From Aquisalimonas sp. 2447 (lineage in GTDB: Bacteria; Pseudomonadota; Gammaproteobacteria; Nitrococcales; Aquisalimonadaceae), in assembly GCF_012044895.1 (NCBI RefSeq), contig NZ_CP050695.1, forward strand, positions 588,501 to 652,500: DNA of 64,000 nt, given 5' to 3'. A program made the translations under genes and the position numbers. Shown one piece after another: positions 25,739 through 37,915 of the stretch. Each line of letters starts with the position of its first letter. Position 1 is the first letter of the stretch. Under the pieces are notes generated by a model. It did not search any database. It worked only from the letters and a program-made list of their open reading frames with translations, and was not told where the DNA came from.

Positions 25739-26200
25739 GGAAACCTCCGGGGCATGGGCGACATTCAGCGTCGCTACGCCATGATGACTAACTCCCTTAC
25801 ACTTCCGCAATCAGGTTGTTCTTGCAGGCTCCCGAAGTCCGCCCATCGGGCTCGTTCCTGATCTGCAACCGGTGACAGTGACATCGCGTTTACGCCGGGG
25901 AAGAAATGTCCTTCGACGCGGCGACGGTCGAAAGGTTTGGAACCTGCCCGGAGCAGGGAGTTCAGGGGGGCGGCATTAGCCGTGGCGCACAAATGGTGCA
26001 TAAAGCGGCGAAAACGCATTGTTTTGGTGCGAAGCGGTTCGGCTATTGACGTTCTTGAGTTTCGTAAGACTGAGAAAATAAAAAGAAAAGAGACATTGGC
26101 CCCATACTTGCTTTTATCTGATTGCACAGTAAGGAGCTCGGGTCGCCTGTCTGGTGACCAGGAAGGGATTCGCGTTCCGGACAATTTGGTTTCAATGGGT
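25739..26200. other. intergenic region upstream of the guanidine-I riboswitch
   Basis: About 460 bp with no convincing gene. The part 26030-26130 is AT-richer than its surroundings and probably contains the operon promoter, but no pair of -10/-35 hexamers with good spacing stands out. Confidence 0.5.
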
Positions 26201-26295
26201 CGCTAGGGTTCCGGTCCGCAGATGCGGATGGCTGGTCCGAGAGCAACCGACCTCTCCTTGAGAGGTTACACGGCGGGACAAAAGCCCGGGAGGTC
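26201..26295 (+). promoter_or_regulatory. guanidine-I riboswitch (ykkC class)
   Basis: The conserved blocks of this class appear in order: CTAGGGTTCCG (26203-26213), CTGGTCCGAGAG (26232-26243), then ACACGGCGGGACAAAAGCCC and GGGAGG (about 26268-26293). A hairpin CCTCTCCTTGAGAGG lies between the last two. The aptamer binds guanidinium and switches expression on. The ABC importer start codon follows 50 bp later, so translation or early termination could be controlled. Confidence 0.9.
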
Positions 26296-26345
26296 GTCAA
26301 CGAGCTCCTGTGCTGTGTCCACCTGTAGCTTGACGGGAGAGAGTC

Positions 26346-27437
26346 ATGATTCGTCGCACACCTGCCTTACTTCGCCGCCTTGCCGCGGTCGCCACTGCCA
26401 CTGCGCTGTTTGTGGGCATGACCCTGCCTGGCGTCTCCGTCGCCCAGGAGCGGGACAGTTTCCGTATTGCCTGGAGCATCTATGTGGGCTGGATGCCCTG
26501 GTCGTACGGTGACGCCGAGGGCATCGTCGACAAATGGGCCGACAAGTACGACATCGAGATCGACGTGGTCCAGATCAACGACTACATCGAATCGATCAAC
26601 CTGTATAACGCCGGTGAGTTCGATGGCGTCACCATCACCAACATGGACGCCCTGACCATTCCGGCCGCCGGCGGCGTGGATACCACGCTGCTGATCATTG
26701 GCGATTTCTCCGATGGCAATGACGGTGTGGTGCTCAAGGGCACCGACGATCTCGCGGACATCGAAGGCCAGCGCGTCAACCTGGTCGAGCTGTCCGTCTC
26801 TCACTATCTGCTGGCACGCGCCCTGGAGTCGGTGGGACTCACCGAACGCGATATTTCCGTGGTGAACACCGCCGATGCGGACATTGTCGGCGCCTTCTCC
26901 AGCGACGACGTCACCGCGGTCACTGCCTGGAATCCGCAGCTTGGGGAAATCCGGGCCATGGATAACGCCAACGTGGTCTTCGACTCCTCGGATATCCCGG
27001 GCGAGATCATCGACACTCTCGCTGTGAACACCGAGACGCTGGAAGCCAATCCCAAACTGGGCAAGGCGCTGGTGGGTGCATGGTACGAGATCATGAGCAT
27101 CATGGAAGGTGACGATGAGGCCGCCAAGGAAGCGCGCGCCGACATGGGCGATGCCGCCGGCACCGATCGCGAAGGCTACGAAGCGCAGCTCGCCAGCACC
27201 ACCATGTTCTACGATCCCGCTGACGCCGTGGCGTTCGTGACCAGCGACCAGCCCCAAGAGACCATGGAGAACGTCCGGCAGTTCGCCTTCGAACACGGTC
27301 TTCTGGGCGACACCGCCCCCAGCCCCGATTTCGTGGGGATTGAGTTCACGGACGGTTCCGTGCTCGGTAACGCCGGAAACGTGAAGCTGCGTTTCAATGC
27401 CGAGTACATGCGCATGGCCGCCGACGGCGAACTCTGA
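26346..27437 (+). CDS. ABC transporter substrate-binding protein (guanidine operon)
   Basis: Periplasmic binding protein of 363 residues in the NrtA/SsuA/TauA-like class. It has a cleavable signal peptide (hydrophobic ATATALFVGMTLPGVSVA, then QERD). The mature start IAWSIYVGWMPW and the TNMDALTIPAAGG region belong to the nitrate/sulfonate fold. Placement directly after a guanidine-I riboswitch and before the carboxylase genes suggests that guanidine is the ligand; that is an inference from context. A GGGAGAGAG site precedes the ATG. Confidence 0.9.
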   Translation: MIRRTPALLRRLAAVATATALFVGMTLPGVSVAQERDSFRIAWSIYVGWMPWSYGDAEGIVDKWADKYDIEIDVVQINDYIESINLYNAGEFDGVTITNMDALTIPAAGGVDTTLLIIGDFSDGNDGVVLKGTDDLADIEGQRVNLVELSVSHYLLARALESVGLTERDISVVNTADADIVGAFSSDDVTAVTAWNPQLGEIRAMDNANVVFDSSDIPGEIIDTLAVNTETLEANPKLGKALVGAWYEIMSIMEGDDEAAKEARADMGDAAGTDREGYEAQLASTTMFYDPADAVAFVTSDQPQETMENVRQFAFEHGLLGDTAPSPDFVGIEFTDGSVLGNAGNVKLRFNAEYMRMAADGEL

Positions 27438-27503: not shown

Positions 27504-28325
27504 ATGAAACGAGTCATCAACCAACACCCCAATCGCGTGCTCAGGGTCGGACTGGCCATACTGCCGTTCGCCATTGTGCTGCTGCTCTACGTTGTTGCCT
27601 CCAACGCGCGGTTGGCGGAAAACCCGGACGACAAGCTCCTGCCGTCGCTCATGACCATGGCGGAGTCGGTGCAGCGCCTGGCGACGGAGCCGAGCCGCCG
27701 CACGGGGGACCTGCTGCTGTGGGTGGATACCGGCGCAAGCCTCACACGTCTGGGGATTGGTGTGTCCATCAGCATGCTCGTGGGGCTGGTGGTGGGCATG
27801 GTGACGGGGTTGATCCCGTACGTGCGCCGTACGATGTCGCCGTTCATCACCGCCGTCGCGATGATTCCGCCGCTGGCGATTCTGCCAATCCTGTTCATCT
27901 CTTTCGGTGTCGGCGAGTTGTCCAAGGTGATGCTGATCATCTTCGGCATCCTGCCGTTCATCATCCGGGATCTGCAGCAGCGGGTGGAGGAACTGCCCAA
28001 CGAACAGCTGGTAAAGGCGCAGACACTGGGCGCATCCACATGGCAGCTCCTCTTGCGGGTGGTCCTGCCGCAGACCGTCCCGCGACTGCTGGACGCCACG
28101 CGCCTGGCGCTGGGTGCCGCGTGGCTGTTCCTGATTGCCTCGGAAGCCATCGCTGCCCAGGAAGGGCTGGGTTACCGCATCTTCCTGGTCCGACGCTACC
28201 TGGATATGCAGGTCATCCTGCCCTATGTCGCCTGGATTACGCTGCTTGCCTTCCTGTTCGACTGGGTGCTGCGCAAGATCAACCAGGTGTGCTTCCCCTG
28301 GTACGGCGCCGGGAGGTCCGCATGA
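27504..28325 (+). CDS. ABC transporter permease (guanidine operon)
   Basis: Inner-membrane permease of 273 residues with about six transmembrane segments, BPD_transp_1 family. The coupling-helix EAA-like region reads LPNEQLVKAQTLGAS and contacts the ATPase. The start at 27504 is chosen because GAAGGGG lies seven bases upstream; an earlier ATG at 27477 would add nine residues. Its stop overlaps the ATPase start (ATGA). It pairs with the preceding binding protein. Confidence 0.92.
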   Translation: MKRVINQHPNRVLRVGLAILPFAIVLLLYVVASNARLAENPDDKLLPSLMTMAESVQRLATEPSRRTGDLLLWVDTGASLTRLGIGVSISMLVGLVVGMVTGLIPYVRRTMSPFITAVAMIPPLAILPILFISFGVGELSKVMLIIFGILPFIIRDLQQRVEELPNEQLVKAQTLGASTWQLLLRVVLPQTVPRLLDATRLALGAAWLFLIASEAIAAQEGLGYRIFLVRRYLDMQVILPYVAWITLLAFLFDWVLRKINQVCFPWYGAGRSA

Positions 28326-29116
28326 CGGCCGTCGAGGCGAAGAAGCTCTGGAAAGAGTACGGCGACGACGTCGTGCTCGAGAATATTGATCTCAAGGTCG
28401 CCTCCGGTGAGTTCGTGACCATCGTGGGCGCTTCCGGCTGCGGCAAGACGACCTTTCTGCGCATGCTCCTGGGCGAGGAGCAGCAAACGCGCGGGCAGCT
28501 TTTGCTGGACGGCGAGCCGATGCCGGCAGAGCCGGGCCCGGACCGCGGCGTCGTTTTCCAGAAGTATTCCGTGTTTCCCCATCTCACGGCACTGAAAAAC
28601 GTCATGCTCGGTGACGAGTTCCAGCAGTCTCCGTTCGCCGCACGGCTGCTGGGGGCAGCACGGCGCCGGGCGCGGGAACGGGCCATGTCCATGCTGGAGA
28701 ACGTGGGGCTGGAGGATGCCCGTGACAAATACCCCACCGAGCTTTCCGGTGGCATGCAGCAGCGCCTGGCGATTGCCCAGGCACTCATGAAGGACCCGGG
28801 GGTGCTGCTGCTGGACGAACCCTTCGGCGCGCTGGATCCGGGCATCCGCAAGGACATGCACGGCATGATTCTGGATCTCTGGCGTCGCACGGGCATCACC
28901 ATTTTCATGATCACGCACGATCTCAAGGAAGGTTTTGATCTTGGTACGCGTCTGCTTGTGTTCGACAAGGTGCGGCACGATCCCCAGGCACCCAACGCGT
29001 ACGGCGCCCAGATTACCTACGACATACCGCTGGGCAAGACCGACCAGGAGACCTGGACCGAACTGACCCAGTCTGTGGACCCGGCGCTCGTGGGAACTCA
29101 AGCGACGGTGGATTGA
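28322..29116 (+). CDS. ABC transporter ATP-binding protein (guanidine operon)
   Basis: Nucleotide-binding subunit of 264 residues. Walker A is GASGCGKTT (about residues 36-44), the signature LSGGMQQR, Walker B VLLLDEPFGAL, and the switch histidine lies in MITHDLKEG. Sequence type is that of nitrate/taurine importers. Its ATG overlaps the permease stop, so the two are coupled. The C-terminal 35 residues extend past the usual domain. Confidence 0.93.
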   Translation: MTAVEAKKLWKEYGDDVVLENIDLKVASGEFVTIVGASGCGKTTFLRMLLGEEQQTRGQLLLDGEPMPAEPGPDRGVVFQKYSVFPHLTALKNVMLGDEFQQSPFAARLLGAARRRARERAMSMLENVGLEDARDKYPTELSGGMQQRLAIAQALMKDPGVLLLDEPFGALDPGIRKDMHGMILDLWRRTGITIFMITHDLKEGFDLGTRLLVFDKVRHDPQAPNAYGAQITYDIPLGKTDQETWTELTQSVDPALVGTQATVD

Positions 29117-29145
29117 TGACAACAAGCTTTGCAGGAGGAAGCGCG

Positions 29146-29883
29146 ATGTATCCAACACCCATCGCAGAAAACCGGGTCGTGCTGCGGGACGCCGTTCCCG
29201 GCGGCCGTTATTGGTCCATGGTGGTCAAGCGCGGCTACACGCTGCGGCTCACGGACCGGGACGGGGGCGGCAACGCCGCGGTGCTGCTGTTCAACCCGCA
29301 CAACCCGCTGGAGCGCTACAGCATGGCGGATACCCTGAAGGGGCAGCACGTCTCCCGACTGCAGCGGGGCAACATGCTGTTCTCGGACATGGGCAGGACC
29401 ATGTTCTCCATCGTGGGCGACACCGTCGGCTGGCATGACCCCATCGGCGGGATCACCGATGCGGACATGATCCTGAAACAGTATGGCGAGGCCACGTTCC
29501 AGGACCACTGGAACGACTTCTACCGCAACGGGCGTGAGCTGTTCCTGATCGAACTGGGCAAGTGGGGCCTTGGGAAGCGCGACCTGGTCCCGAACATCAA
29601 CTTCTTCAGCAAGGTCGTGGTCGGCGATGACGGTGGCATGAATTACGTGCCGGAAAACAGCCAGGCCGGCGACAGCGTTGATCTGCGCGCCGAGAGTGAC
29701 ACCCTGGTGGTGCTGAATACCGCACCGCATCCCATGGTCCCGGGCAGCACCTACGCACCCTCGCCGGTGGATCTCATGATCTACCGCTCGGCGCCGGTGG
29801 CGGACGATGACTACTGCCTCCATCACAGTCCCGAGAACGCCCGCGCCTACGCCAACACACTGATTGCCAACTGTCAGGGGTGA
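29146..29883 (+). CDS. urea carboxylase-associated protein 1 (DUF1989), carboxyguanidine deiminase subunit
   Basis: 245-residue DUF1989 protein of the UAAP1 type. In guanidine pathways the UAAP1/UAAP2 pair forms the carboxyguanidine deiminase (CgdAB), which turns carboxyguanidine into allophanate. Here the position equivalent to the Cys-containing CGRHD site of the partner reads VGWHDPIGG, so the cysteine is missing and this is probably the structural half. Shared family blocks include [14 protein letters not shown] and PSPVDLMIY. Start: ATG at 29146, after AGGAGG at 29131-29136; an ATG at 29113 overlaps the ATPase stop. I leave the A/B assignment open. Confidence 0.85.
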
Positions 29884-29888
29884 ACAGC

Positions 29889-30539
29889 ATGAACGGAATG
29901 AACCTGGTCGAGAGTGAGCGCATGCCGGAACACGCGGTAATGCGGGAAAAGGTCCTCGCCGGTGCCCACTGGATGGGAGAGGTGAAGAAGGGCCAGACCC
30001 TGCGCATCCTGGATGTGGAAGGGAACCAGGCCGCAGACACCCTGTTCTACAGCCTGGCCGACCCGCAAGGCGAGAAGTACAGCGCCGTGGACACGGTGCG
30101 CGAGCAGGGCAACGTCTACCTGACCACGGGCACGAAACTGCTCTCCAACGAAGGCAACGTGATGCTCACCATCACCGCGGACACCTGCGGCCGGCACGAC
30201 ACCCTCGGTGGCGCCTGTTCGGCGGAAGCCAACCAGATGCGCTACGCCCTGGACAAAAAGCCCATGCACTCCTGCCGCGACAACTTCGTCCACGCCATCC
30301 AGGAGAGCGGCTACGACCTGACCAAGCGGGACGTCGTCAGCAACATCAACTTCTTCATGAACGTGCCGCTGACGCCGGAGGGTGGCCTGAGTTTCCAGGA
30401 CGGGATCTCCGGGCCGGGCAAGTACGTGGAAATGCGCGCTGAAATGGACGTCATCGTGCTGCTCTCCAACTGCCCGCAGCTCAACAACCCGTGCAGCGGC
30501 TTCAACCCGACGCCGCTGGAGATGATCGTCTGGGACTGA
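29889..30539 (+). CDS. urea carboxylase-associated protein 2 (DUF1989), carboxyguanidine deiminase subunit
   Basis: 216-residue DUF1989 protein, partner of the preceding gene, which ends six bases before it. It keeps the probable metal site in [17 protein letters not shown] and a third Cys in [11 protein letters not shown], so it is the likely catalytic half. The family blocks [12 protein letters not shown] and [13 protein letters not shown] are clear. Start at the ATG at 29889; a GTG at 29880 overlaps the upstream stop and is possible. Many databases would call it urea amidolyase associated. Confidence 0.86.
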
Positions 30540-30620: not shown

Positions 30621-30683
30621 CGCAGGAGCGACGCGAGTCGCGACGGAGACCAGCAGAACGTTGCGACTCGCGTCGCTCTCTAC
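30621..30683. repeat. REP-like palindrome pair between UAAP2 and carboxylase genes
   Basis: Left arm with GGAGCGACGCGAGTCGCG (about 30624-30641) and an inverted right arm with GCGACTCGCGTCGCTCTC ending in TAC (30663-30683). The reversed right arm has a GTAG head. It lies in the middle of the operon and may act as a processing or partial termination site. Confidence 0.7.
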
Positions 30684-30776
30684 GGAGAAGGGGCTCCACA
30701 AGGGCATAGCGGCCAGGGACGACCCTGGCGCAAGCACCATGCTGCGGGACGACCCGCTGACGGAGAATCAAAACGC

Positions 30777-33700
30777 ATGTTCAGCAAGGTCCTGATCGCC
30801 AACCGCGGCGCCATCGCCTGCCGCATCATCCGCACCCTCAAGCGGTTGGGCGTGCACTCGGTGGCTGTCTACTCCGAGGCGGATCGCCACTCCCTGCACG
30901 TGCACCAGGCCGACGAAGCCGTCCACATCGGTGACTCCGCTGCCAGCGCCTCTTACCTGGACGCCGACCGCATCCTGCGTGTCGCCCGGGAGACCGGCGC
31001 CGAGGCCATTCACCCCGGCTATGGCTTTCTCTCCGAAAACGCGGAATTCGCCGAGGCGTGCGAGGCTGCGGGCATCGCGTTTATCGGCCCCACGGGCCAG
31101 CAGATGCGCGACTTCGGCCTCAAACACACGGCACGCAGTCTCGCCGAAGCCAACGACGTGCCCATGCTGCCCGGCACCGGGCTGCTGGAGAGCCTGAACG
31201 AGGCGGTGGGCGAGGCGGAGCGCATTGGTTATCCGGTGATGCTCAAGAGCACTGCAGGTGGCGGCGGCATCGGCATGCAGCTCTGCCACAGCGAGGCCGA
31301 GTTGCGCGACGCCTACGACTCCGTCAAACGGCTCTCCCAGAACAATTTCTCCAACAGCGGCATCTTCCTGGAGAAATTCGTCCGGCGCGCTCGCCACATC
31401 GAGGTGCAGCTCTTCGGTGACGGGCAGGGTGGCGTGATCGCCCTGGGTGAGCGGGACTGCTCCCTGCAGCGGCGCAACCAGAAGGTGGTGGAGGAGACCC
31501 CGGCGCCCAACATCACCGACGCCGTTCGTGCGGATCTGCTCACCGCCGCCGAGAAGCTGGGCCGGGGTGTGAACTACCGCTCGGCGGGGACGGTGGAGTA
31601 CATCTTCGACGCCGACACCGGCGAGTTCTACTTTCTGGAGGTGAATACCCGGCTGCAGGTGGAGCACGGAGTTACGGAGGAGGTGACCGGCGTCGATCTG
31701 GTGGAGTGGATGGTGCGGGGTGCCGCCGGCGATCTGCCGGACCTGGAGCGCCTGCGGCCCGGTCCGCCCGAAGGCCACTCCATACAGGTGCGCCTGTACG
31801 CCGAGGATCCGGGCAAGAACTTCCAGCCTTCCACGGGGCTGCTCACCGAGGCGGTCTTCCCCGAGGGTGTCCGGGTGGATACCTGGGTGGAGCGGGGGAG
31901 TGAGATCTCGCCTTACTACGACCCAATGATCGCCAAGGTGATCGTGCACGCGGCCGATCGCGCCGCGGCGATCGAGAAAATGCAGACGGCGCTGGCGGCC
32001 ACCGAGCTGCATGGGCTGGAGACCAACCTGCTCTACCTGCGCCAGGTGATCGCCGACCACACCTTTGGCAAGGGTGAGGCGACCACCCAGTATCTGAACA
32101 GCTTTACCTATCACGCCCCCACCATCGACGTGGTCAGCCCCGGAACCCAGACCACCGTGCAGGACTGGCCCGGCCGGGTGGGCTACTGGGACATCGGTGT
32201 GCCGCCCTCCGGCCCCATGGACATGCTTGCCTTCCGCATGGGCAACCGCATTGTCGGCAACGACGAAGGCGCCGCGGGTCTGGAGCTGACCGTCACGGGA
32301 CCGAGCCTGCGCTTCAACACCGACGCCGTGATCGCGCTCACGGGGGCGGCCATGCGCGCGAAACTGGACGGTGAACCGCTGACGTTCTGGCGGCCCGTGA
32401 TGGTCACCGCCGGACAGACTTTGAAGCTCGGGCCAGTGCAGGGTGCCGGCACTCGGGCCTACCTGCTGGTGGCCGGCGGCATCGACGTGCCCCTGCACAT
32501 GGGCAGTCGCGCCACATTTACCCTGGGGCAAATGGGTGGTCACGGCGCCCGCGCGTTGCAGCCGGGCGATGTGCTGCATATCGGTGACACCGATACAGTG
32601 GACGCGGTCACCCCCAAGGAAGGCGCCGTGCCCGAGTACGGCAACCACTGGAACATTCGTACCGTCTACGGCCCCCACGGCGCGCCGGATTTCTTCACCC
32701 AGAGGGATGTCGATACCTTCTTCGGCACAGACTGGGAGATCCACTACAACTCCAGCCGTACTGGTGTGCGCCTGGTGGGTCCGAAGCCGGAGTGGGCGCG
32801 GGAAGACGGCGGCGAGGCAGGGCTGCACCCGTCCAACATCCACGACAATGCCTACGCCATTGGCACCATCGACTTCACCGGCGACATGCCGGTCATCCTC
32901 GGCCCCGACGGGCCGAGCCTGGGTGGCTTCGTTTGTCCGGCCACCATCATCAGTGCCGATCTCTGGAAAATGGGGCAGCTGAATCCCGGCGACAGCGTGC
33001 GTTTCCTGCCGGTGTCCGTGGCGGAGGCCAACCGGCTGGAGGCAGCACAGGACGCGGCGATTGCCGCGTTGCAGTCGGCGGAGAGCGAGGCCGAAGCGGT
33101 GCCGGTGACCACGCCGATCCTGAAAAACGAGCGTGGCAATGGCCATCCGCTGGGCGTCACCTACCGGCCCGCCGGCGATAAGTATCTGCTGGTGGAGTAC
33201 GGACCCATCGAGCTGGATCTGAATCTGCGCTTCCGCGTGCAGGCCCTGCTGGAGTGGCTCACGGAGCAGCGCATCACCGGAATCACCGAAATGACCCCGG
33301 GAGTGCGCAGCCTGCAGATCCACTACGAGCCGAAGCAGTTGCCCTTGGCGCAGCTCATGCAGTTGCTGGAGCAGGCCGAGGCCGAGCTCAAGGATCTCTC
33401 CGAGGCCGAGCTCCCTTCGCGCATCATTCATCTGCCGCTGGCCTGGGATGACAGCCAGACGCAACTTGCCACCCGGAAGTACATGCAATCCGTGCGCAGT
33501 GACGCCCCCTGGTGTCCGCGCAACATCGAGTTCATCCGCCGCATCAACGGGCTGGACAGCGAGGAGGACGTCAAACGTATTGTCTTCGACGCCTCTTATC
33601 TGGTCATGGGCCTGGGGGATGTCTACCTGTCCGCGCCGTTGGCTACACCGGTGGACCCGCGTCACCGTCTGGTGACTACCAAGTACAATCCGGCGCGCAC

Positions 33701-34370
33701 CTGGACGCCGGAGAACGCCGTGGGCATCGGCGGCTCGTACATGTGCATCTACGGCATGGAGGGTCCGGGGGGTTACCAGTTCGTGGGCCGCACCCTGCAG
33801 ATCTGGAACCGCTACAAGGTCACGCCAGAATTCCAGCAGCCGTGGCTGCTGCGCTTCTTTGACCAGATCCGCTTCTACGAGGTCACCGAGGAGGAGCTGC
33901 TCGCCATGCGCGATGCCTTCCCCAAGGGCGGGCTGCGCATCGACATCGAGGAGACCACGTTCTCGCTCAAGCGCTACAACGCGTTCCTCGCGGCCAATCG
34001 CGACAGCATCGACACCTTCAAGACGCAGCAACAGGCCGCTTTTGAGGCCGAGCGCCAGCGCTGGATCGAGACCGGACAGGCCAACTATGAGGCGGATGCC
34101 GAGCCGCCGGCTCCGGAGCCGGACGCGGTGGAACTGGCCGACGGGGAGTATGCCGTGGAAGGCCATGTTCACGGCAGCCTCTGGGCGCTGGATGTGAAAG
34201 AGGGCGATCGCGTGGAGGAAGACCAGCAGTTGCTGGTGCTGGAGTCCATGAAAATGGAGATCCCCGTGCTGGCCGAGTCCGCGGGCACGGTGAAGCGCGT
34301 GCTTGGCAGCGAAGGCAGCCAGGTGACTCCGGGTCAGGTGCTGCTGGTCATCGCGGAGGACGTCCAGTAA
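30777..34370 (+). CDS. guanidine carboxylase (urea carboxylase family, biotin-dependent)
   Basis: ATP- and biotin-dependent carboxylase of 1197 residues. Residues 1-445 are biotin carboxylase ([18 protein letters not shown]; glycine loop [28 protein letters not shown]). From about 447 follows the carboxyltransferase part made of the AHS2/KipA-like ([22 protein letters not shown]) and AHS1/KipI-like domains. The C-terminal biotinyl domain carries the modified lysine at 1159 in [10 protein letters not shown]. Enzymes of this layout act on urea or guanidine; the guanidine riboswitch and the two DUF1989 partners argue for guanidine, giving carboxyguanidine. Start at ATG 30777, after GGAG at 30762. 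Confidence 0.9.
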
Positions 34371-34382
34371 CGACGCCTGCCT

Positions 34383-34451
34383 GTAGGAGCGGCGCGAGCC
34401 GCGACAGCAGCCGAAAATCGGAACCGCAACCGCGGCTCGCGCCGCTCTCAT
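34383..34451. repeat. REP-like palindrome pair after the carboxylase gene
   Basis: Left arm GTAGGAGCGGCGCGAGCCGC (34383-34402), and an inverted arm GCGGCTCGCGCCGCTCTCAT (34432-34451). It is adjacent to the IS110-family element; several IS110-family elements target REP sequences. Confidence 0.7.
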
Positions 34452-34499
34452 CAAACATCTGCCAGGTCGTTGTTTTGACAGGGGCGGTTTCATATTGAG

Positions 34500-35833
34500 T
34501 CATGCTGCTGGCACCAGATCGAGGCCGAGTTTGCGGGCCTTGCGCTGGAGTGCCCGCAGTTGGCGATCATGGCGTGTGGCCTCGAAGGCCTCGATGCCTT
34601 TCTCGACGTAGGGCTGGCCACGGGTGAGCATGGCGTAGATCAGCCGGGCGAGCTGGTGAGCGGTGGCCTTGATCGCTTTGGCGGTGTCCATGCGTGTCAG
34701 TCTTGCGCGATGGGCGGCGCCGATGAAGCTGCGACTCGATCGCGCGTTCGAGGCGGCTTGGCGGAGTGCCTGGGCGGCGATGTTGTTGACCTTCGTCCCC
34801 GGCCCGCTGAGGGCTTTGCCACCCGAGATCCGGGTCGGTGGCGCGAGCCCGAGCCAGGAGCAGAAGTGCGCCTGGGAGGGAAAGCGCGAGAGGTCGGGGC
34901 CGATTTCTCCGGCGATCACCAGCACGGTGTCGACACCCAGCGATGGGATGGCGCTGAGATCGACCCCCATGACCTGGAGGAGTGCCTGTTGGAGCCGGCG
35001 CTGCTCGGCCGCGCTGCGGTGGGCGCTGCGCGAGGGGGTGGCGAGTTCAGTCGGGGCACAGGCACGCACGGGCAGTGCCTCGAGTGCCGAGAGGATCGCC
35101 CGATCACAGGCGCCGATCTGCTGCTCGAGAAAATCAAAGTGCGCCAGTGCCTGCTCGAGGGCAAAGAGATGCTCGACGCGCCAGTTGCCATGCAGGCTGC
35201 GCGCGACCGTCGCCTCGTCGGCGCGCAGCCGCCGATCGCGTAGCGTGGCGAGCTGCCACGGATCCCGCTCACCGGCGACAATCGCCCGCAGGATGCGCAT
35301 CGCCGTCTTGCCCTTGAGGTCGCTGACGACATGGCCCAGATGCACGTTCATCTGCGCCAGCGCCTTGTGCATGTGGTTCAGACACCACGACTGGGCCTGG
35401 ATCCGGCGACTGCGCTGGCGCACGAACGCACGCAGCGTGCACACCGCATCACCCGGGCGAAAGGCACCGCTCAACAAACCGTGGCTCATCAACTGCCAGA
35501 TCCACTGACAGTCGAGCACATCGGACTTGCGCCCCGAGACCTGCCGCGTGGCCCGGGAGTTGACCAGCAGAACCTCAAAGCCCCGTGCATCAAGCACCTC
35601 AAAGGGCGCAATCCAGTACACCCCGTCGCCTCCATCGCCACCTGGGTGATCCCCAGCGACTCCAGCCAGTCGGCCAGCGCCTGCAGATCGTCGGTGAAAC
35701 CGCTGAAACACCGCACCGAGACCTCGCAACGCCCGGGATCCACCGCCACCCAATGCTCGTGACCCCCGACATCGATACCGGCACAATCCGGATGCACCAC
35801 CTCCAACCGCCGCTTCTGCCTCTTGCCTGCCAT
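34500..35833 (-). pseudogene. IS110-family transposase, single-base frameshift
   Basis: DEDD recombinase of about 444 residues when both frames are joined. The N-terminal part starts at ATG 35833 and holds the first Asp (GIDVGGHEHWVAV) and the Glu (VAMEATG). The rest, in the next frame from VYWIAPFEVLDARG, holds KSDVLD and the transposase_20 region PSLGVDTVLVIAGEIG, with the Ser/Gly segment RISGGKALSG. The frames break at the C run 35621-35624 (G run on the coding strand); one extra G restores VAMEATGVYWIAPF. This may be an inactivating mutation or a sequencing slip. The element lies inside the guanidine operon, antisense to it. Confidence 0.85.
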
Positions 35834-36115
35834 GTCCGTTCCTCACATGATGATCACAAGGGCGTACGGGGAGACACGGCGGCGGTAGGGCTCACTCTCT
35901 CATACGAGGTCACGGCCAGTGCCGTGCCTTCAACGACTCCACGCCGATGCCGTGCGGGCCACTCTCCTACGCGGGTGCATGCACACCAGTGCGGCGTCTG
36001 GCCTCTGCTCTCCGTGCGCCCGCCTATCTTGCACCATGTTTGCTGCGCGACAGCGCACCAACAGCGTTGATGCGCAATCTCCTACAAAGACAAACAAACA
36101 TGACGAGGTGCCACT
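35834..36115. other. noncoding 5' end of the IS110 element and leader of atzF
   Basis: About 280 bp upstream of the transposase start and before the hydrolase start. IS110-family elements of one group carry their bridge RNA in this position; CAGTGCCGTGC and GATGCCGTGC are repeated here and short palindromes are frequent, but I cannot fold the region. The right border of the element is not defined. The atzF ribosome binding site is probably GACGAGGTG at 36102-36110. Confidence 0.4.
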
Positions 36116-37915
36116 ATGCAGACGCTCACCGAACTACTGGACGCCTACCGCGGCGGCCACAAGCGCCTTCGCCGGCACATCACCGAGGTCATGGAAACGG
36201 CGCGCTCCGGCGACGACCGCAACATCTGGATTACCGTGCTTACCGACGCGCAGCTGGAACCCTACCTGCAGCGTCTGGAAGCGGCTGACCCGACGGAGCT
36301 GCCGCTCTACGGCGTGCCGTTCGCAATGAAGGACAACATCGACCTGGCGGGCATTCCCACCACTGCGGGGTGTCCGGACTACACGTATACCCCGGAGTCC
36401 TCTGCGTTCTTGGTGCAGCAGCTCATCGATGCCGGCGCCGTGCCCGTGGGCAAGACCAACCTCGACCAGTTCGCCACCGGTCTGGTGGGCACCCGCTCGC
36501 CGTACGGCGCCTGTGGCAATGCGTTCGATCCGGATTACGTCTCCGGTGGCTCCAGTTCCGGTTCTGCGGTCAGCGTCGCGCTGGGCCAGGTCTGCTTCTC
36601 GCTGGGGACTGATACGGCCGGCTCAGGTAGGGTGCCTGCCGCGTTCAACAACCTGGTTGGCGTCAAACCCACCTGCGGGCTGCTCAGCGCCAGTGGCGTG
36701 GTGCCGGCCTGCCGCACCATCGACACCATCTCCATCTTCGCCACGACAGTAGCTGATGCCCAGCAGGTCCTGGATGTCGCCGCGGCCTTCGATGTCGATG
36801 ACGCTTATTCGCGTCCGGACAGTGTGCCGTCGCTCGGGCATGGCAGCATCCCGGTGGCGGGTTTTCGCTTCGGCGTACCGAAAGCGGAACAACTCGCCTT
36901 CTTTGGTAACCGCGAGTCGGAAAAGCTGTTCTTCCAGGCCGTTGAACGGCTGGAAGCGCTCGGCGGCAAGCGGGTGGAACTGGACTTCGAGCCTTTCCTG
37001 GAAGCGGCCCGCCTGTTGTACGAAGGGCCCTGGGTCTCCGAGCGCTACACGGCCATCCGCGAGTTCATCGAGCGTGCGCCGGAGTCATTGTTCCCAGTAA
37101 CGCGGGAGATCATCGGTGGCGGCGGCAAACCGCTGGCCACTGATGCTTTTGCTGCCCAGTACCGGCTCAAGGCCCTGAAGCGCCGCACCGAGGCCACCTG
37201 GGACGACGTGGACCTGGTGATCACGCCGTCAGCCGGGACGATTTACACCACCGACGCGGTCAACGCCGATCCGGTGCAGCTCAACAGTAACCTCGGCTAC
37301 TACACCAACTTCATGAACCTGCTGGACTTCAGCGCTCTGGCGGTGCCGGCCGGATTTCAGTCCGACGGTTTGCCCTTCGGCGTGACCCTGTTCGCCCCCG
37401 CTTTCTACGATCAGGATCTGCTGGCCATCGGTGATCGGCTGCATCGGGATCAGGCCCTGCCGCTCGGCGCTACGGGTGCGGCCATGCCAAAAGGCGAACC
37501 GGTGGCGGCCCGCCATGCCCACACCATTCCGGTGGCGGTTTGCGGTGCGCATATGCATGGTTTGCCGCTCAACTGGCAGCTCACCCAGCGTAACGCGCGT
37601 TTCGTGGAGGCGACGCGCTCGGCGCCCGAATACCGCTTCTATGCATTGCCCGGCGGTCCACCCCATCGGCCGGGCATGGTGCACGTGGGCGCAGGAGGCG
37701 GTGCCGTGGAACTGGAGGTATGGGAGGTGCCCGCCGATCGTTTCGGGTCCTTCGTCGCGGGCATTCCCGCGCCGCTGGGTATCGGCAAGGTGCGCCTCGC
37801 GTCCGGCGCGGAGGTGCCCGGTTTCGTTTGTGAGGCCAGCGCGGCGAATCAGGCCGAGGACATCACTGCACTGGGTTCCTGGCGCACCTGGCTGAAGGAG
37901 CAAGCGGCGAAGTAG
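36116..37915 (+). CDS. atzF: allophanate hydrolase
   Basis: Amidase-signature enzyme of 599 residues that splits allophanate into two ammonium and two CO2. The Ser-cisSer-Lys triad lies in VPFAMKDNIDLAG (Lys) and SGGSSSGSAVSVALG (the two serines). The C-terminal domain, from about residue 460 (AVCGAHMHGLPLNWQL onward), is the extra domain specific to AtzF/DUR1,2-type hydrolases. It would complete the pathway started by the carboxylase and deiminase. The IS110 element separates it from those genes, so it may now need its own promoter or read-through. Confidence 0.93.
   Translation: MQTLTELLDAYRGGHKRLRRHITEVMETARSGDDRNIWITVLTDAQLEPYLQRLEAADPTELPLYGVPFAMKDNIDLAGIPTTAGCPDYTYTPESSAFLVQQLIDAGAVPVGKTNLDQFATGLVGTRSPYGACGNAFDPDYVSGGSSSGSAVSVALGQVCFSLGTDTAGSGRVPAAFNNLVGVKPTCGLLSASGVVPACRTIDTISIFATTVADAQQVLDVAAAFDVDDAYSRPDSVPSLGHGSIPVAGFRFGVPKAEQLAFFGNRESEKLFFQAVERLEALGGKRVELDFEPFLEAARLLYEGPWVSERYTAIREFIERAPESLFPVTREIIGGGGKPLATDAFAAQYRLKALKRRTEATWDDVDLVITPSAGTIYTTDAVNADPVQLNSNLGYYTNFMNLLDFSALAVPAGFQSDGLPFGVTLFAPAFYDQDLLAIGDRLHRDQALPLGATGAAMPKGEPVAARHAHTIPVAVCGAHMHGLPLNWQLTQRNARFVEATRSAPEYRFYALPGGPPHRPGMVHVGAGGGAVELEVWEVPADRFGSFVAGIPAPLGIGKVRLASGAEVPGFVCEASAANQAEDITALGSWRTWLKEQAAK

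Follow-up and report, generated by a model that had tools for sequence, protein, structure and literature searches.

We suspect that the genes with which Aquisalimonas sp. 2447 would take up and degrade guanidine are governed by three inputs, and that a Guanidine-I riboswitch lying directly ahead of the importer gene is the second of them. The proposal concerns a 64,000-nucleotide stretch of the genome (contig NZ_CP050695.1, positions 588,501 to 652,500), which we call the window and number from its first base. Under nitrogen scarcity, NtrC would activate a sigma-54 promoter whose most likely start lies approximately 70 nt upstream of the Guanidine-I aptamer. As long as guanidine is absent, the 5′ strand of helix P2 (CUCUCC) in the nascent mRNA would pair with the Shine-Dalgarno sequence of the importer, GGGAGAGA, and both strands of P3 would be locked in an alternative hairpin, leaving the importer untranslated; guanidine, by stabilizing P2 and P3, would free the ribosome-binding site. 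A Guanidine-II riboswitch 4.4 kb downstream would license the carboxylase as a second sensor. In other words, the outcome would be an AND gate that responds to nitrogen hunger together with guanidine. We put the probability of the whole model (aptamer and operon, sigma-54 promoter, and Shine-Dalgarno switch taken jointly) at roughly 55%. Established here are the aptamers (from their covariance scores) and the operon, as well as the sequences that resemble a promoter or could pair with one another, along with the extent to which they are conserved. Papers are cited by PMC number, each for part of its text.

Two aptamers and a guanidine operon

A cmscan search of both strands of the whole 64 kb returned a match to the Guanidine-I family, RF00442 (E 1.6e-16; Table 1), that runs the full length of the model (positions 1–107 of 107) and is the only one in the 3,972,634-base genome. 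The preliminary description had recognized a ykkC subtype 1, or Guanidine-I, RNA from three ordered diagnostic blocks, and it had named a covariance score below the family threshold as grounds for abandoning that identification. All three blocks are present in that order (CTAGGGTTCCG from 26203, CTGGTCCGAGAG from 26232, and ACGGCGGGACAAAAGCCCGGGAGG at 26270–26293), and the score, 97.5 bits, exceeds the curated threshold of 63. The RNA had also been placed correctly ahead of the importer, since the match ends 51 nt before the importer ATG at 26346. Its location was right, but the span then given, 26201–26295, begins 9 nt inside the match and omits the first three nucleotides of P1. An alignment of 26 aptamers, the window's among them and all from genomes of the class, shows compensatory changes at 15 of the 27 predicted pairs: at each of these, at least one sequence has replaced the two partners without loss of pairing. 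The element therefore combines a score above threshold, covarying helices, and a site ahead of guanidine transport and degradation genes, as expected of its family; the platform that is usual for Guanidine-I but does not define it, an intrinsic terminator with a U-tract, is missing in that the window hairpin carries no U-tract.

The scan of the whole window also found a second riboswitch, which the preliminary description did not contain. This Guanidine-II (mini-ykkC) element, with the two ACGR-loop hairpins of its family and a score of 41.1 bits against a threshold of 32, lies 19 nt before the carboxylase ATG at 30777, and it too is a single match in the genome. Guanidine-II riboswitches are translational according to the literature, and guanidinium binding and translational control are predicted for this one.

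Table 1. Features of the guanidine operon and its upstream region, in window coordinates
Feature	Position	Strand	Evidence or remark
NtrC-like site GGCGCACAAATGGTGCA	25984..26000	+	8/10 positions of TGCACN7GTGCA; begins 113 nt before the −24 element
Second, weaker NtrC-like site GCATTGTTTTGGTGC	26016..26030	+	by eye
Sigma-54 −24/−12 promoter candidate TGGCCCCATACTTGC	26097..26111	+	9/11; inferred transcription start about 26123
Guanidine-I aptamer (RF00442)	26192..26294	+	97.5 bits, gathering score 63
Helix P2 5′ strand GACCTCTCC, predicted anti-Shine-Dalgarno in the ligand-free fold	26249..26257	+	
Alternative hairpin built from the two strands of P3 and the conserved GGGAG; not followed by a U-tract	26275..26320	+	
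Shine-Dalgarno GGGAGAGA of the importer binding protein	26335..26342	+	unpaired probability 0.13 free, 0.50 with the aptamer enforced
ABC importer substrate-binding protein	26346..27437	+	TIGR03427, 534 bits, cut-off 333.9
ABC permease, TauC/SsuC-like	27504..28325	+	no listed NCBIfam model at cut-off; upstream TTG 27477 also open
ABC ATPase	28328..29116	+	0 of 25 NCBIfam models shown at cut-off; start codon tentative
UAAP1	29140..29883	+	TIGR03425, 315.9 bits, cut-off 205.95; scanned as 29113–29880, start codon tentative
UAAP2	29880..30539	+	TIGR03424, 325.4 bits, cut-off 284.7
Guanidine-II (mini-ykkC) aptamer	30713..30757	+	RF01068, 41.1 bits, gathering score 32
Guanidine carboxylase (predicted)	30777..34370	+	TIGR02712 urea_carbox, 1916.3 bits, cut-off 1303.85; Asp699 at the substrate-specificity position
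IS110-family insertion	34431..36085	-	transposase 34500–35846, NF033542; ends from comparison with other copies
Allophanate hydrolase AtzF	36116..37915	+	TIGR02713, 817.5 bits, cut-off 511.05

The proteins encoded behind the two aptamers include UAAP1 and UAAP2, known as the subunits of carboxyguanidine deiminase. A phmmer alignment sets Asp699 of the carboxylase opposite Asn1330 of the K. lactis urea amidolyase (chain 5i8i), and position 1330 is presumably the active-site residue to which the rule separating the two kinds of carboxylase refers. By that rule, the active site holds an aspartate in guanidine carboxylases and an asparagine in urea carboxylases (PMC12186494); the window enzyme, with Asp for Asn at the specificity position, is predicted to act as a guanidine carboxylase. 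The assignment of guanidine as substrate thus draws on protein evidence, from Asp699 and the guanidine-pathway genes, in addition to the RNA. The riboswitch is informative on the substrate, but calling it the key that fixes it, as had been done, was too strong, given that TIGR03427, UAAP1, UAAP2, Asp699, and Guanidine-II bear on the question independently.

An aptamer of ykkC subtype 2 for some other ligand (PRPP, ppGpp, or nucleoside diphosphates), or an operon for degrading urea, would present some of the same features: subtype-2 RNAs have the ykkC architecture in common (PMC7266159), and family names label the operon's genes urea carboxylase and putative urea transporter. Against this reading, the RNA scores 97.5 bits as Guanidine-I and matched no rival family, subtype-2 models perhaps being absent from the model library, and the guanidine-pathway genes, Asp699, and the Guanidine-II element within the same operon all argue for guanidine. 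Scanned to an E value of 10, positions 26100–26400 yielded, besides Guanidine-I, just one chance-level match of 11.3 bits to an unrelated family; finding no support there for a subtype-2 ligand, we rejected it. We hold the subtype-2 or urea reading to be very improbable and the identification of the aptamer and of a guanidine operon to be practically certain; that the window aptamer binds guanidine we infer from its sequence.

For comparison, named genomes were scanned with an alignment of the importer protein, and the best 80 of at least 519 confirmed places were used. Their hosts are Alcanivorax, Marinobacter, Vreelandella, Neptuniibacter, Thiocapsa, an Ectothiorhodospiraceae bacterium, and others. 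These 80 loci overlap our other sets: L091 is the G009 contig, a source of sequences for models R1 and R2, and L144 may be the contig of G089. With models built here, 71 of these best 80 loci proved to have Guanidine-I within 800 nt upstream of the importer gene; among the nine without one nearby, L114 and L123 have a Guanidine-I on the upstream side at a distance of 5.1 kb, and the sequence of L146 starts with the gene itself. Where the carboxylase start also lay on the stretch (53 of the best 80 loci), 41 loci have Guanidine-II within 300 nt upstream of that start when E values up to 0.1 are admitted, and 27 when the limit is 0.01; the gap to the carboxylase start was 18–24 nt in 29 of the 41. 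Of the 57 carboxylase matches among the related loci, 56 carry Asp at the specificity residue and one carries Asn.

The 1655-bp IS110 element separating the carboxylase and hydrolase genes has four further copies in the genome at 98–100% identity, making five full-length or nearly full-length copies in all. It sits in a palindrome, short copies of which occur at 11 other genome places among the matches listed. The reading frame of the window hydrolase is open. In nine of ten carboxylase-bearing relatives examined, the hydrolase gene comes no more than about 310 nt after that of the carboxylase; L037, the tenth, showed no hydrolase on the stretch examined. Palindromic repeats of the GGAGCGRCGCGAGYCGCGAC type, which look like REP elements, occupy two gaps of the operon, at 30625–30679 and at 34386–34449, the second of which holds the IS110 copy. 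An allophanate hydrolase paralogue of 63% identity is encoded elsewhere in the same genome (L205, 10799–12601), where it adjoins ABC-type genes and an ORF that by eye resembles a carbon-nitrogen hydrolase; a copy of IS110 lies approximately 1 kb away.

Sigma-54-like and NtrC-like sites upstream of Guanidine-I

The promoter candidate upstream of the aptamer has the GG-N10-GC spacing of TGGCACG-N4-TTGC and agrees with the −24/−12 consensus, printed as GGcacg-N4-ttGC in PMC5491218, at 9 of 11 scored positions. The genome encodes both RpoN (473.8 bits, cut-off 277.35) and NtrC (747.8 bits, cut-off 558.6). When 200 nt upstream of 72 Guanidine-I elements (the window's and those of the 71 importer-linked loci from the best 80 of at least 519) were scanned, 56 had a match of at least 9/11 that included GG-N10-GC, compared with 2.8% of the 3500 dinucleotide-shuffled sequences made for 70 of these loci; on the reverse strand of the 72 regions there were no matches at that level. 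The element starts 20–163 nt before the aptamer match, and no more than 135 nt before it in 54 of 55 loci, the window excluded; from the closest one, transcription would start approximately at the first P1 pair. An even sample of the class gave a similar picture, 31 of 36 scored Guanidine-I loci reaching 9/11 after one of 39 loci (L083) had been dropped because the pattern for the aptamer end was unmatched.

Guanidine-II loci served as an exporter control, which thus concerns another riboswitch class, the sample holding no Guanidine-I element with an exporter. Five of 40 loci were dropped for an unmatched aptamer-end pattern, and 35 were scored. None of ten Guanidine-II elements before ORFs of 104–106 aa had a sigma-54 site of at least 9/11, one of them having just 63 nt upstream; the three such ORFs tested are all SMR transporters (PF00893). 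Four of the 35 loci do have such a site, two ahead of desaturase-like ORFs (L181 and L196) and two ahead of carboxylases (L188 and L198), so that sigma-54 sites are not confined to Guanidine-I.

It could be argued that an ordinary housekeeping promoter drives the operon and that the sigma-54-like sequences are coincidental. The transcript start is a prediction, and 16 of the 72 loci lack a match at the 9/11 level. Coincidence, however, accounts poorly for the excess over shuffled sequence, for the restricted position of the element relative to the aptamer, or for its absence before the exporter-size ORFs, and no sigma-70-type promoter was found in 25820–26420. We consider a housekeeping promoter improbable and judge it highly probable, from these sequence comparisons, that the window Guanidine-I lies behind a sigma-54 promoter. 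NtrC-like sites were scored against TGCACN7GTGCA, which we take to be the consensus; upstream of the promoter, 34 of 55 loci have a site of at least 8/10, compared with 11.9% of 1650 shuffled sequences.

Two groups of ORFs met in these surveys deserve mention in their own right. Guanidine-II precedes desaturase-like ORFs in L181 (PF00487), L189 (marginal), and L196 (by eye), which may encode enzymes with a guanidine compound as substrate. In L071, L076, L084, and L085, Guanidine-I is accompanied by sigma-54-like sites of 11, 8, 11, and 9 of 11 positions, respectively, and is followed by ORFs of about 400 aa that by eye resemble guanidinase; the first 110 aa of the ORFs in L076 and L084 gave no Pfam match.

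A Shine-Dalgarno switch or a terminator

Guanidine-I is usually a transcriptional ON switch that works through a terminator (PMC12186494), and this mechanism has been presumed for the Guanidine-I element of Vreelandella boliviensis (PMC12508155). The window leader folds otherwise. In the minimum-energy fold of 26123–26360 (−105 kcal/mol, z −3.27), the 5′ strand of P2 pairs with the Shine-Dalgarno sequence, and both P3 strands pair with a downstream segment. Across 36 leaders, the pairing of P2 5′ strand with its own Shine-Dalgarno is stronger than that obtained by permutation among loci (−12.11 versus −9.89 kcal/mol; 0 of 2000 permutations), whereas control segments gave null results (323 of 2000 for the segment before the Shine-Dalgarno, 1113 for the segment after it, and 629 for the other aptamer hairpin). 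Start codons for this comparison were picked by a script as the best purine run before an in-frame start, and the set was reduced from 93 records to 36 by removing similar proteins and leaders with a gap between aptamer and start below 44 or above 300 nt. A looser set of 71 leaders behaves alike (−11.79 versus −10.06 kcal/mol, 0 of 2000); its strongest pairing, −21.1 kcal/mol, belongs to V. utahensis (L097), a relative of the bench-studied species. Measured against loci of like G+C content, the mean advantage is −1.92 kcal/mol, with the locus's own pairing better in just 21 of 33. Part of the pairing is generic, because Shine-Dalgarno sequences differ little wherever they occur and P2 is rich in pyrimidines. 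A sham control with the 3′ strand of P2 was withdrawn: the 18 nt that it used share bases with the 5′ strand and the loop of P2, and it scored like that strand (z −6.8).

When the aptamer is enforced, the Shine-Dalgarno is unpaired with a mean probability of 0.47, compared with 0.27 in the free leaders; the value increases in 23 and decreases in two of the 36. In only 20 of the 36 is the Shine-Dalgarno paired mainly with P2. For the window leader the enforcement costs 16.9 kcal/mol, so guanidine binding would have to take effect during transcription.

The textbook mechanism is a serious rival, if in our view a somewhat doubtful one. The conserved GGGAG at the 3′ end of the aptamer would form with a downstream CUCC the hairpin of a terminator, intrinsic or Rho-assisted, that guanidine prevents, and the Shine-Dalgarno pairing would be incidental; such a mechanism may be compatible with a sigma-54 promoter. 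Besides being the view of Guanidine-I in the literature cited above, it predicts pairing that is indeed common, 57 of the 72 leaders (best 80 of at least 519 loci) having GGGAG paired further downstream, as in a terminator platform. In only seven of those 57, however, do the 10 nt that follow the hairpin contain at least five T, and the window has neither a U-tract nor any terminator-like site on the + strand of 25820–26420, on which ground an intrinsic terminator in the window was rejected. Nor would termination explain the locus-specific complementarity between P2 and the Shine-Dalgarno. That complementarity, the opening of the Shine-Dalgarno, and the lack of a terminator in the window together suggest translational control by a P2/Shine-Dalgarno switch, a step of the model that we regard as reasonably probable.

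Relatives, meaning, and known guanidine operons

Within the order, Guanidine-I occurs in 14 of 54 genomes and Guanidine-II in 12 of 54, ten of these over the cut-off. Four congeners (G005–G008) yielded neither riboswitch under stricter filters; other genera of the family have them, a pattern that may reflect patchy loss or transfer. Relatives of the importer binding protein appear on 235 plasmid records, mostly from Rhizobium (124) and Pantoea (73). At three loci (L085, L088, and L089), Guanidine-I occurs twice, once on each strand, the two elements being divergent and separated by a few hundred bases.

Ligand binding, promoter use, a role for NtrC, and translational control are what we infer from the sequences described. 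If the promoter and switch model holds, guanidine use would be wired into global nitrogen control, and the presence of guanidine would by itself be insufficient for expression of the importer; the promoter would be the point at which assimilation and detoxification part ways, and the presumed terminator mechanism would need revision for these operons. More tentatively, and with slightly less than even confidence in the joint claim, we suggest that Guanidine-I with sigma-54 and NtrC forms a general proteobacterial AND gate in assimilation operons that guanidine riboswitches of exporters lack, and that many of these elements act by a P2/Shine-Dalgarno switch, so that importer and carboxylase would each be translationally licensed by a different sensor on one nitrogen-controlled transcript.

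Genes called urea carboxylase in NtrC regulons may then be readable as guanidine genes. Among sigma-54-controlled COG3665 genes, 59% of 102 are named urea carboxylase (PMC12316311). Burkholderia cenocepacia H111 has a "urea carboxylase" cluster, I35_7283–7286, with the same gene types as the window by annotation, which is NtrC-dependent under nitrogen limitation and belongs to the NtrC/sigma-54 regulon; its authors grouped it with urea use, and the words "guanidine" and "riboswitch" are absent from the text as far as available, the likeness being one of gene annotation (PMC5491218). A literature search that left subscription papers on guanidine operons outside its scope did not turn up a guanidine riboswitch paired with NtrC, and the papers found in the same scope under guanidine, riboswitch, and sigma54 concern, by their titles, other matters.

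A study of Alcanivorax placed Guanidine-I before the importer gene, which it interpreted in terms of export, and reported Guanidine-II in two species only, before a SugE-like gene (PMC9788540); in the Alcanivorax loci collected here, Guanidine-II also stands before the carboxylase. Like other members of RF00442, the window element is a full-length aptamer with the conserved blocks; unlike the usual member, it has a leader without a U-tract and a predicted platform that hides the Shine-Dalgarno by means of P2.

Guanidine-I and Guanidine-II in one guanidine operon have already been published (PMC12508155, PMC12186494), and novelty for the two-riboswitch arrangement was rejected on that account. 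The operon of V. boliviensis resembles that of the window in having Guanidine-I at its start and Guanidine-II between cgdB and gca, and in its three ABC genes, cgdA/B, gca, and atzF; it differs in that the window has an IS110 copy between gca and atzF, and it also has mgdH and mgdL, the comparison with the window being made on the other genes. The available passages of that account do not mention a sigma-54 promoter, Shine-Dalgarno pairing, or NtrC (PMC12508155). In Raoultella terrigena, Erwinia rhapontici, and Klebsiella michiganensis, as in the window, the importer and deaminase genes stand behind Guanidine-I and the carboxylase and hydrolase genes behind Guanidine-II; these hosts are enterobacteria, a group other than that of the window, and the part available of the review describing their operons mentions neither NtrC nor sigma (PMC12186494). 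The operon with riboswitches as two sensors is thus already known, the promoter and Shine-Dalgarno-switch layers go beyond what our literature search turned up, and what we would add to the known systems is a testable model with three inputs: a nitrogen-controlled promoter, Guanidine-I, and Guanidine-II.
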